Source: Pseudidiomarina aquimaris (lineage in GTDB: Bacteria > Pseudomonadota > Gammaproteobacteria > Enterobacterales > Alteromonadaceae). From it: a stretch of DNA of 64,000 nt. Below are positions 31,397-58,976 of the stretch, piece by piece. The translations under genes and the position numbers were made by a program. Every line of letters starts with the position of its first letter. Within the stretch, counting starts at the first letter, position 1. Under the pieces are notes generated by a model. It ran no database searches and was not told where the DNA came from. It saw only the letters and a program-made list of their open reading frames with translations. The stretch spans positions 1 through 64,000 of the forward strand of contig NZ_PIPT01000001.1 of assembly GCF_003987395.1 (NCBI RefSeq), given 5' to 3'.

Positions 31397-31414
31397 GCTA
31401 CCCCCTAAAAGAAA

Positions 31415-31515
31415 AAGCGTTGTTTGCTATTTGCTGTTCGCACGCTCACTGTGTTCGCTTTTTGTTTAGAAAAATGGTTTAAACAAACAACGAACAGCGA
31501 ATAGCAAACAGCGCT
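31415..31515. repeat. Dispersed palindromic repeat, copy 1 (full length)
   Basis: Two 24-base arms (31418-31441 and 31491-31514) are inverted copies with two mismatches, one arm reading CGAACAGCGAATAGCAAACA. Inner bases TTCGCTTTTTGTTTA also pair with TAAACAAACAACGAA. The region can fold into a long hairpin between the arsC-like start and the thioredoxin-like gene. Its reverse complement resembles the repeats at 55326-55360 and 57656-57839. Confidence 0.7.
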
Positions 31516-55165: not shown

Positions 55166-55325
55166 ATAACCTCCAAGGCTGAAAATGTAATTAGTAATAC
55201 TAGCATATCCCTTTGATTGATCACTCGTATTTATCTGCTCGCACCGCCTTTACATAAAATTATCGTATAAAAATTAATCCTTTTTCGAACACGCCAACGT
55301 ACAACCCCACGACGCCAAATAATTT

Positions 55326-55360
55326 CAAACAGCGAACAGCGATTAGCAAACAACGCTTTT
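55326..55360. repeat. Dispersed palindromic repeat, copy 2 (one arm only)
   Basis: The stretch starts CAAACAGCGAACAGCGATTA and ends AGCAAACAACGCTTTT. It matches one arm of the repeat at 31415-31515. It lies in the 224-base gap between the yceI-like gene and the fasciclin gene, just before the fasciclin ribosome site. The rest of this gap is AT-rich, with nothing else recognisable. Confidence 0.6.
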
Positions 55361-55389
55361 CGATATTTTCATTAGCAAGGAGTATTACC

Positions 55390-55902
55390 ATGTTAAATCT
55401 AGCATCAACAATGAAATGGTTAGCAGGTGCACTGCTCATCGCCGCAGTATCAACTACAGCAGCAGCACATAATCACGGCAACAAAAAAGATATCGTCGAC
55501 ATCGCCGCCAGCGATGGTCAATTCTCTACTTTAGTTACTGCAGTAAAGGCGGCAGGCTTGGTAGACACCTTAAAAGGTGACGGTCCATTTACCGTTTTTG
55601 CACCGACCAACGATGCCTTCGCAGCGTTACCAGAAGGTACGGTCGAGAATCTTTTGAAGCCAGAAAACAAAGACCAATTGGTTGCTGTATTGACCTACCA
55701 CGTGTTGGGCGACAAAGTTCCTAGCTCTGCGATCGCAGGTAAAGAATTGTCGACAGCCACCGTGCAAGGTGAAGAAGTCGCTATCGACGCTACCGACGGT
55801 GTGCAAGTGGGCGGCGCTAATGTCGTGAAAGCCGACATTATGGCAAGCAACGGCGTGATCCACGTGATCGACGCGGTGATTCTGCCACCGTCAATGCGTT
55901 AA
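55390..55902 (+). CDS. Fasciclin-domain secreted protein
   Basis: The protein has 170 residues with a signal peptide ([12 protein letters not shown]) and one fasciclin (FAS1) domain. The conserved elements are [29 protein letters not shown] and [15 protein letters not shown]. Bacterial single-FAS1 proteins are periplasmic or secreted, with roles in adhesion or stress; the role here is not shown. AAGGAG precedes the ATG, and a strong T-tailed hairpin follows. Confidence 0.88.
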
Positions 55903-56075: not shown

Positions 56076-56777
56076 ATGACCGAACATCCAAGTTTACTAC
56101 GCCAAGCGATCACCGCCTCCGACCGTGTGCTATACGAGATCCAACGTGCCATTGTCGAAGGTGCCATTCCCGCAGGCAGCAAGATCAGTGAACCCGAGTT
56201 AGCACGCCGCTTCGACGTCAGCCGCGCCCCCTTGCGTGAAGCGCTGGCACGCCTAGAGCGCTGTCACCTCATCGAACGTATCCCGAATGCGGGGGCACGG
56301 GTGGTGACCCTGACGCCAGAAGGCTTGATTGCCCTTTATCAAATCCGCGAAGAGCTCGAAGGACTCGCCTGTCGCCTTGCCGCAGAGCAGATGCCCGCCG
56401 CAGAAATTGATGAACTCGCTGCCTTGCTCGATCAACATCTGAGTACGCAACGTGTGCGTGAAGGCGAAAGCTACTATCAAGAAGCCGGTGACCTCGATTT
56501 TCATTACCGTGTCATTTTAGGCAGCAAGAATCCCTATCTAATTAATATGCTTTGTGACGAGTTGTATTATTTGGTGCGCATGTATCGCGTACAGATGGGG
56601 ATGAATGGACCGCGGGTGTCACGGGCCTTCGACGAACATAAAGCCATATTGAGTGCCATTGCCAATCGCGATGGCGAACTTGCCGATTTATTGATGCGTC
56701 GGCACATCGCGGCGTCGCGCCGCAACATTGAGAAGCAATTAAACGAAATGCAATTAGCAGAGAAGGAACACGCATGA
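56076..56777 (+). CDS. GntR-family (FCD) transcriptional regulator of the 2-methylcitrate operon
   Basis: The protein has 233 residues from ATG 56076; a TTG start at 56052 would add eight residues across the second GTCGAC site. The N-terminal winged helix ([20 protein letters not shown]) and C-terminal FCD helical domain with metal-ligand His/Asp (DLDFHYRVI, then the late RHIAASRRN) are clear. It overlaps prpB by four bases and heads the operon, so it is probably a local repressor that senses a methylcitrate-cycle intermediate. This is inference from position. Confidence 0.88.
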
Positions 56778-57652
56778 GCCAGGTACACAGTGCAGGCGCA
56801 AAATTGCGCCAAGCGATTAAAGACGAAAACCCATTGCAAATTGTCGGCACCATTAATGCCTACACCGCAATGATGGCCGAAAAAGTAGGGCACAAAGCAC
56901 TTTATTTGTCAGGTGCGGGCGTTGCCAATGCCTCGTTTGGCCTGCCAGACCTCGGTATGACGTCGTTGAACGATGTGTGTGAAGATATTCGCCGTATCAC
57001 GGGTGCTACGGACGTGCCTTTGTTGGTTGATGCCGACACCGGTTGGGGCGGTGCCTTCAACATTTCGCGTACGGTCAAAGAAATGACCCGCGCTGGCGCA
57101 GCTGGTTTTCACATTGAAGACCAAGTCGCCCAAAAGCGTTGCGGCCATCGTCCAAACAAAGAAATTGTCACTCAAGGTGAGATGGTGGATCGCGTAAAAG
57201 CCGCCGTTGACGCGCGTATCGACGATCAGTTCTTGATCATGGCGCGTACCGATGCTTTACAACAAGAAGGTTTAGAAGCGGCCATCGAACGCGCACAAGC
57301 CTGTGTTGAAGCTGGCGCTGACGCAATTTTTGCCGAAGCTGTACACACTCTTGAACAGTACCAAGCCTTTACCAACGCGCTGAATGTGCCAGTTCTTGCT
57401 AACATTACCGAATTCGGTGCAACACCATTGTTCAACAAACAAGAACTTGCCGATGTTGGTGTCGAGATGGTGCTGTATCCATTGAGCGCGTTCCGTGCCA
57501 TGAACAAAGCCGCACTGAATGTTTATGAAAGCATTCTTGCCAACGGCGATCAAAAAGCGGTGGTCGATGATATGCAAACGCGCGCGGAATTGTATGAGTT
57601 CTTGAACTATCACGCATTCGAGCAAAAGCTCGACGAATTATTTAAAAAATAA
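56774..57652 (+). CDS. prpB: Methylisocitrate lyase
   Basis: The protein has 292 residues of the PEP-mutase/isocitrate-lyase fold. Diagnostic parts are [34 protein letters not shown] (K-R-C-G-H active-site loop) and [12 protein letters not shown]. It splits 2-methylisocitrate to succinate and pyruvate. It is translationally coupled to the GntR gene upstream. A 199-base repeat-filled gap separates it from prpC. Confidence 0.95.
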
Positions 57653-57655
57653 AAA

Positions 57656-57839
57656 GCGATGTTTGCTGTTCGATGTTTATGAAAGGCGATGTTTGCTATT
57701 CGCTGTTTGATGTTTGTTTAGATCTAAACAAAAAGCGAACGTAGTGAGCGTGCGAACAGCGAATATCGAACAACGGTTTTTCGAACAGCGAATATCGAAC
57801 AACGATTTTTCGAACAGCGAATATCGAACAACGATTTTT
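57656..57839. repeat. Dispersed palindromic repeat, copy 3, with three 29-bp tandem units
   Basis: The gap between prpB and prpC holds a variant of the repeat at 31415-31515: TTGCTATTCGCTG, TTTGTTTAGATCTAAACA and AAAAAGCGAACGTAGTGAGC. After this come three direct 29-base units (57753-57781, 57782-57810, 57811-57839), each starting CGAACAGCGAATATCGAACA. Units 2 and 3 are identical, and unit 1 differs by one base. The last ends six bases before the AAGGAG of prpC, so the transcript between prpB and prpC should be strongly folded. Confidence 0.8.
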
Positions 57840-57851
57840 AAGGAGTTTATT

Positions 57852-58976
57852 ATGGTTGATAAGAAATTAGGTGGCGCGGGTTTGCGCGGACAAGTTGCTG
57901 GTGAAACTAAACTATGTACCGTTGGTAAAAGCGGTTCAGGCTTGACCTACTACGGTTATGACATCAAGGAATTGGCAGAAAAAGTAAGCTTCGAAGAAGT
58001 GGCTTATTTGTTGGCGCACGGTGAATTGCCGAAAGCGGACGACTTGGCTGCTTACAAAGGCCGTTTGGCGAAGTTGCGTGGCTTGCCACAGTCACTGAAA
58101 GACGTGCTTGAGCGTATTCCTGCCGACGCGCACCCGATGGACGTGATGCGTACCGGTTGCTCGTTCTTGGGCAACATTGAACCAGAAGATGATTTCACCC
58201 AAGCGGACGACAAAATTGAGCGTCTGTTGGCGGCGTTTCCAAGCATCTTGTTGTACTGGTACCACTTCAGCCACAACAACAAGCGCATCGAAACTGAAAC
58301 TGACGCAGATTCAATCGGCGCGCACTTCTTAGAATTGTTGCACGGTAAGAAGCCGTCACAATTGCATGCTGACGTAATGAACACTTCGTTGATTCTGTAT
58401 GCAGAGCACGAGTTTAACGCGTCGACCTTTACTGCACGTGTTTGTGCTTCGACCTTATCGGACATTTTCTCATGTGTGACTGGTGCGATTGGCTCACTGC
58501 GTGGTCCATTGCATGGTGGTGCCAACGAAGCCGCGATGGAATTGATTGAAGACATGAAAGACGCTGATGATGCTGAGAAAACCTTGATGGGCATGCTCGA
58601 GCGTAAAGAAAAGATCATGGGCTTCGGTCACGCGGTCTACCGTGAGTTCGATCCACGTAACGACATCATCAAAGCATGGTCTGAGAAGCTTGCTGAAGAG
58701 AATGGTGATACGCGTTTGTATGACGTGTCTGTGCGCTGTGAAGAAGTTATGTGGCGCGAGAAGAAGTTGTTCCCGAATGCGGACTTTTTCCATGCTTCTG
58801 CTTATCACTTCATGGGCATTCCAACCAAGTTATTCACGCCAATCTTCGTGATGTCACGCGTAACCGGTTGGACTGCACACGTGAAAGAGCAGCGTGCAAA
58901 TAACCGCATCATCCGTCCAAGTGCGGATTACATTGGTCCAGAGCCACGTCCAGTACCAGCACTGAACGAACGCTAA
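57852..58976 (+). CDS. prpC: 2-methylcitrate synthase
   Basis: The protein has 374 residues from ATG 57852, with AAGGAG eight bases upstream. The frame is open further upstream through the 29-bp repeats, but those residues are repeat-derived and not family-like. It carries citrate-synthase-fold motifs LHGGANEAAMELIEDM and GFGHAVYREFDPRN with the catalytic His and the terminal Asp region. It condenses propionyl-CoA with oxaloacetate. Second enzyme gene of the prp operon; acnD follows by 11 bases. Confidence 0.94.
   Translation: MVDKKLGGAGLRGQVAGETKLCTVGKSGSGLTYYGYDIKELAEKVSFEEVAYLLAHGELPKADDLAAYKGRLAKLRGLPQSLKDVLERIPADAHPMDVMRTGCSFLGNIEPEDDFTQADDKIERLLAAFPSILLYWYHFSHNNKRIETETDADSIGAHFLELLHGKKPSQLHADVMNTSLILYAEHEFNASTFTARVCASTLSDIFSCVTGAIGSLRGPLHGGANEAAMELIEDMKDADDAEKTLMGMLERKEKIMGFGHAVYREFDPRNDIIKAWSEKLAEENGDTRLYDVSVRCEEVMWREKKLFPNADFFHASAYHFMGIPTKLFTPIFVMSRVTGWTAHVKEQRANNRIIRPSADYIGPEPRPVPALNER

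Follow-up and report, generated by a model that had tools for sequence, protein, structure and literature searches.

A single imperfect palindrome, with arms made up of seven-base units, fills the gap between prpB and prpC in this Pseudidiomarina genome, and it belongs to a family with copies scattered through the same genome. We consider it probable that this is a dispersed non-coding element whose arms were amplified in place, which spreads at the level of the DNA, and which for the most part is simply carried along in the prp transcript. The window, by which we mean the whole stretch of 64,000 nucleotides that was analysed, comes from a Pseudidiomarina host whose nearest named relative by PrpC is P. 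atlantica (98%). The genome of the window is labelled G000 here; other G-numbers denote genomes compared and L-numbers denote loci.

Layout, period and dispersal of the element

On the plus strand, the genes run in the order GntR-type regulator gene, prpB, prpC, acnD and prpF. PrpB, PrpC, AcnD and PrpF match NCBIfam models above the curated cut-offs; the regulator upstream of prpB has matches below cut-off only. The gaps in this operon are otherwise short (-4 bp before prpB, 11 bp after prpC), but 199 bp intervene between the end of prpB at 57652 and the start of prpC at 57852, and one element takes up this gap as far as the prpC ribosome site. The features are as follows:

56774..57652, plus strand: prpB, methylisocitrate lyase, the upstream gene (NCBIfam)
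57653..57839, plus strand: heptad hairpin element filling the prpB-prpC gap
57649..57678, plus strand: left-arm unit 1, 30 bp, overlapping the end of prpB by four bases
57679..57708, plus strand: left-arm unit 2, 30 bp
57716..57729, no strand: central palindrome GTTTAGATCTAAAC, read from the sequence, within the inverted-repeat pair
57735..57753, plus strand: off-centre inner segment GCGAACGTAGTGAGCGTGC, which gives the element an orientation and is reversed in G008
57753..57781, plus strand: right-arm unit 1, 29 bp (7+7+7+8)
57782..57810, plus strand: right-arm unit 2, 29 bp
57811..57839, plus strand: right-arm unit 3, 29 bp
57840..57845, plus strand: prpC ribosome site AAGGAG
57852..58976, plus strand: prpC, 2-methylcitrate synthase, the downstream gene (NCBIfam)
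31411..31514, minus strand: another complete family member within the window, units not amplified

A preliminary description of this DNA had noted one copy of a dispersed repeat in the prpB-prpC gap, with three near-identical 29-base units directly before the prpC ribosome site. Both points are borne out, the first by the dispersed imperfect palindrome that fills the gap, and the second by the coordinates and by the tandem array itself, which comprises 3.0 copies of 29 bp at 98% match, with one base difference among the three units. Its TRF score of 167 is the highest among the 25 rows for the window. The left half of the element is likewise duplicated, in two 30-bp units that are 87% alike, and the two halves pair as inverted repeats with 79-88% complementarity. 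As RNA, the 199-nt gap forms a single long nested stem (z -4.93), and none of 200 shuffles was equally stable.

The 29-mer is itself composite, dividing into 7+7+7+8 (CGAACAG, CGAATAT, CGAACAA, CGRTTTTT), and the basic unit is seven bases, not the 29-mer. The left arm is worded GNTRTTN and the right arm as its complement. In 16 orthologous prpB-prpC gaps, identity is 45.5% at lag 7, 39.3% at lag 14 and 32.2% at lag 21, against 24-30% at lags of up to 30 outside the multiples of seven. Lag 7 stands above the gap's own shuffles at z of at least 2.5 in 15 of these 16 gaps; in G015 (z 1.1) the signal is not clear. The RNA fold reaches z of -3 or lower in 14 of the 16, the exceptions being G004 (-1.2) and G019 (-1.5).

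Elsewhere in its own genome, the element is widely represented: 67 BLAST matches merge into 43 places when gaps of up to 100 bp are joined, the best other copy having 87% identity over query positions 34-133. Eighteen scattered copies that were aligned have about 90 bp in common, the off-centre inner segment included. The exact 23-mer core of the array occurs only at prpB-prpC among the loci examined, which cover part of the genome, and the rest of the genome offers no match over the array better than 76%, so that the triplication of the right arm looks local to this site. The arms would have been amplified in place, the left twofold and the right threefold, probably through slippage or through unequal exchange between direct repeats. 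Neighboring genes are co-directional at 22, convergent at 11 and divergent at 4 of the 37 places that were classified (42 places in all, the other five falling within an ORF of a crude ORF finder); selection may mainly exclude the element from genes and promoters.

Rfam gave no gathering-score match anywhere in the window, and no terminator-like or promoter-like site was found inside the element. An intrinsic terminator in the element was considered and rejected, the sole prediction (1.1 are expected by chance) lying within prpB. Two further arrangements of family members were seen. A half element, AAACAGCGAACAGCGATTAGCAAACAACGCTTTT, with the left arm missing, lies at about 55325-55362 of the window, just upstream of an ORF at 55390, and at L144:1201-1655 repeated tRNA-like genes, probably for tRNA-Glu, recur in alternation with copies of the element.

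Distribution and turnover in the genus

The prpB-prpC gap was compared in 23 genomes of the genus, G000 counted. A heptad hairpin is present in 16 of them, in gaps of 93-199 bp, and the remaining seven have gaps of only 14-49 bp; these elementless gaps are short and do not align cleanly. The heptads differ by lineage, being TTTGCTATTCGCTG in the window, GTTAATCGTTATTCG in G013, TATTAGATAATAGATATTAG in G023 and GTTGCTTGTTGCTCG in G005, and the gap of G002 has a 14-base unit in about five copies. Within a genome, the wording of the hairpin is common to the copies. Matches to the window element occur in 14 of 59 genomes searched, with high counts only in G000, G004, G008 and G018, which are relatives. 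The G023 hairpin was found in 12 of 26 genomes; seven from the other clade have 37-83 matches each, and G000, G004, G008 and G018 have none. The G005 hairpin is found nine times in G005, three times in G004, once in G008 and in none of the other 23. The G018 wording was present in all six genomes tested, from both clades.

Between close relatives, the flanks of the junction are conserved, and its hairpin may be a different one or one of the same kind that is flipped. A four-protein tree, with very short branches, grouped G008 with G018, and G017 with G012 and G019. Between G008 and G018, the flanks (300 bases on each side) are 95% identical and the prpB-prpC gap 65% (49% when shuffled); the G000 element has a relative at this gap in G008, where the G018 hairpin has none, and the inner segment lies in opposite orientations in G000 and G008. 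For G017 and G012, the corresponding values are 92-96% for the flanks and 56% for the gap (50% when shuffled). G017 and G019 have the same hairpin, at 85%, with fewer heptads in G019. The window has three right-arm units, and G008 has one spare unit behind its hairpin. Thus, the earlier suggestion that the unit number could vary holds at the level of species (window, G008, and G019 against its sister G017). In the gaps compared, neither an insertion with target duplication nor a near-identical donor was seen, and the best donor for the G018 hairpin within its own genome reaches 84%.

The slpA-ispH and obgE-folA junctions, at which G000 also has the element, behave like prpB-prpC. Of the 24 genomes in which slpA and ispH could both be located, 14 carry a long hairpin between them. 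In G005, G008 and G018, which bear heptads, these two genes leave no gap, so that single sites lose the element too. Between obgE and folA, our own reading gave a heptad hairpin in 13 of 26 genomes, and in two of these the hairpin encloses another palindrome. The family would be spread and replaced at the DNA level; hairpins at fixed intergenic sites may convert one another or transpose, perhaps with the help of an additional factor.

Other palindromes also occur at these junctions. The nested one in the obgE-folA gaps of G008 (L219) and G018 (L220) is GTAGCCCGTGGTTCTACCACGGG, and sequence like it adjoins elements in L154, L157 and L160. At the same junction, G019 (L234) and G012 (L235) have the palindrome CTCGGCGTTTTACGCCGAG where their sister G017 has a heptad hairpin. 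In the slpA-ispH gap of G009 (L196, 267 bp), each arm is a long, pure array of heptads, and the heptads of the two sides differ.

At the scale of whole genomes, the distribution is close to all or none. In 26 genomes of the genus, a generic heptad pattern gave 44-326 matches in 16 (controls 0-2) and none in seven; in G005, G010 and G025 the counts were accompanied by high controls (29 against 32 in G005). The pattern favors some wordings and gives low counts for others, and for this reason a wording-neutral scan was run on a sample of six genomes, 400 kb each (390 kb for G021). It returned four hairpins in G000, nine in G003 and none in G006 and G021, with 0-3 at the control lags; single rows in G005 (a run of N) and G020 (A/T-rich, no heptads) are artefacts and were counted as none. 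Where the prpB-prpC gap was read, it measured at least 93 bp in all 15 heptad-rich genomes and at most 49 bp in all six without matches, with 106 bp in G005 and 21 bp in G010. The species are related and are not independent points, and no p-value is attached to this contrast. The near neighbors G003 and G006 differ by 44 against 0 pattern matches and by nine against no hairpins in 400 kb. Since the heptad-free G006 sits beside G003 in the tree (support 0.63), within a heptad-bearing clade, loss of the hairpins seems likelier than repeated gain. The pair offers a natural contrast for locating a responsible gene.

Outside the genus the pattern is rare: a survey of the class found it in 22 of 369 genomes, counting G000. 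In one genome of 0.4 Mb, 62 matches stand against a control of 28, which is probably a composition effect. A lag-7 scan of 80 named loci passed 15 sequences, six of them with a strong stem (1-5 at six control lags). Those six comprise three from Pseudidiomarina, a heptad array from Pseudoalteromonas, a G/C-rich palindrome and a run of N; one of the three from Pseudidiomarina is labelled as a gammaproteobacterial MAG, and its contig is that of G017. The Pseudoalteromonas array, in strain P1-25 (L072:1885-2021), consists of AGCTAAC/AGCTAAT heptads and lies upstream of prpB, in the 341-bp gap that follows the regulator gene. The idea that prpB-prpC is a special hotspot for repeats across the Gammaproteobacteria was not supported; at the named loci of other genera, the prpB-prpC and prpC-acnD gaps are both widely variable. 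In Marinobacter and Microbulbifer, the prpB-prpC gap may hold several unrelated palindromic repeats (L077, L081, L095, L097, L102, L126, L130).

Role in the transcript and means of spread

Is the hairpin kept for what it does in the transcript? Under that alternative, a stable stem of any sequence would protect the end of the prpB message or separate prpB from prpC, a role that has been suggested for REPs in operons. Several observations would fit: 16 of the 23 genomes have a hairpin at this junction although its letters change, the element begins directly after the prpB stop codon, most of the classified places (22 of 37) are co-directional, and the whole element lowers the predicted access to the prpC ribosome site from 0.85 to 0.34, so that the presence of the element may have an effect. 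In E. coli, REPs near stop codons stall ribosomes, according to the accessible part of one report (PMC12306157). However, selection for pairing in the transcript should leave more G-U than A-C mismatches on the coding strand, and the 60 of 68 co-directional elements whose stems passed the filter have 94 G-U and 96 A-C. By group, the G-U/A-C counts are 31/27 at prpB-prpC (15 of 16 gaps passed), 23/17 at slpA-ispH (14 of 14), 21/18 at obgE-folA (15 of 17, some being other palindromes) and 19/34, the opposite lean, at the other co-directional places of G000 (16 of 21; one-sided p 0.027); convergent places gave 17/16 (8 of 11) and divergent ones 3/1 (2 of 4). The positive control, 37 terminators with 6 G-U and 2 A-C, is underpowered and too small to establish the power of the strand test. 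Covariation in the 18 G000 copies likewise goes against a selected RNA, with a two-sided change in one of 26 predicted pairs, as do the seven genomes that lack the element and the missing slpA-ispH gap in G005, G008 and G018. We hold a selected RNA hairpin to be unlikely. Less likely by far is a switch by repeat number, in which the count of 29-bp units would tune prpC translation or the stability of the transcript, as the preliminary description had proposed. The unit number does differ between species and the array adjoins the ribosome site, but predicted access to that site stays flat at 0.28-0.38 across one to five units, which gives the translational proposal no support in the model. The exact array was found only in G000 among the loci examined, and the sequence features speak equally little for an effect on stability, given the even mismatch counts, an element free of promoter-like and terminator-like sites, and gaps of 14-49 bp in seven of the 23 genomes. 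Because of the mismatch counts, the flat access and the seven genomes without the element, we read it as an element of the DNA rather than an RNA device, and in function it is probably ordinary. A unit count beside a start codon should not by itself be taken for a regulatory switch.

How, then, would such an element spread? Dispersed extragenic palindromes in many copies, here 67 matches in 43 places, are a hallmark of REPs, and G000 has a single RAYT-like Y1_Tnp gene (L170:4010-4859; G000:C21 near 15141), which could have moved the family as a REPIN. We find this barely credible, and rejected it: the gene is flanked by inverted copies of a different palindrome, similar to AGAGGGCAGCCCTCTCT, the 9 kb read around the gene contain no heptad element, and over the genus having the gene is not associated with having the family (Spearman 0.02; the gene occurs in 12 of the 16 heptad-rich genomes and in 6 of the 7 without heptads). 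The REP head GT(A/G)G was also absent at any fixed place when the 18-copy alignment was inspected by eye. At the other extreme, heptamer arrays might have arisen independently at each place by slippage and paired by chance, with no spreading at all. G000 does have pure heptamer arrays, some 12 to 20 units long, and heptamers are described as an abundant class among the longer repeats of bacteria in the accessible parts of two papers (PMC4679880, PMC4692102). This is improbable nevertheless, for the scattered copies have some 90 bp and an off-centre inner segment in common, beyond what slippage alone would give, and wordings are common within clades and rare or absent outside them. A bolder reading would see in the heptad hairpins at fixed landing sites, their lineage-wise heptads, their whole replacement and flipping and their genome-wide loss an unrecognised class of element with a dedicated copying or converting enzyme; we entertain it tentatively and hold it to be unlikely. 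The dispersed palindrome that is amplified in place and carried along in the prp transcript remains our preferred explanation. Weighing against it, no mobilising enzyme was found, and selection for some kind of hairpin could also account for the persistence at one junction in 16 of the 23 genomes.

Comparison with known repeat systems

Cyanobacteria have short tandemly repeated heptamers, and complementary heptads form the stem of their tRNA-Leu intron. These resemble the present element in their seven-base units, but they belong to another phylum, and the intron case concerns one locus and is not dispersed. Heptamers of Calothrix are mentioned in the accessible part of the Xanthomonas study discussed below (PMC4692102), and the same source and a second one, as far as their accessible parts go, regard heptamer repeats as over-represented in bacteria (PMC4692102, PMC4679880). 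Searches of the open-access literature yielded, among the papers listed, nothing on heptad hairpins in Pseudidiomarina or Idiomarina, or on a repeat between prpB and prpC.

The REP and BIME elements are likewise dispersed extragenic palindromes, often within operons. In the available part of Nunvar et al. 2010 (PMC2817692), they are characterised by a GT(A/G)G head and by flanking a RAYT gene, neither of which applies to the Pseudidiomarina element. The marine Beggiatoaceae carry TAACTGA direct repeats, often just before start codons, for which a role in translation was proposed (MacGregor 2015; PMC4679880, accessible part). These too are intergenic heptamer arrays, but as described there they involve one heptamer only.

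The closest likeness is to the GGGAATC heptamer repeats of Xanthomonas (Rehm et al. 2015; PMC4692102), which according to the accessible part of that paper are mostly intergenic and often form inverted pairs, with 70 stem-capable cases in one genome, and are rare between divergent genes. They occupy mostly the same gene pairs in two species, with altered length and sequence, and both species use one G-rich heptad, for which quadruplexes were proposed. The Pseudidiomarina element has in common with them the seven-base period, the inverted arrays, the intergenic location and the small number of copies between divergent genes. On the other hand, and as far as that account extends, its heptads are not G-rich (no GGGANTN), they vary by lineage and site, and hairpins are exchanged as a whole. 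Orthologous junctions at which a hairpin persists under changing letters provide a comparative series for studying the spread, joint rewording and loss of palindromic repeats. The element thus appears to be a variant of the heptamer inverted repeats, its novelty, as far as the literature searches show, lying in lineage-specific wordings and in the replacement of whole hairpins at fixed junctions.
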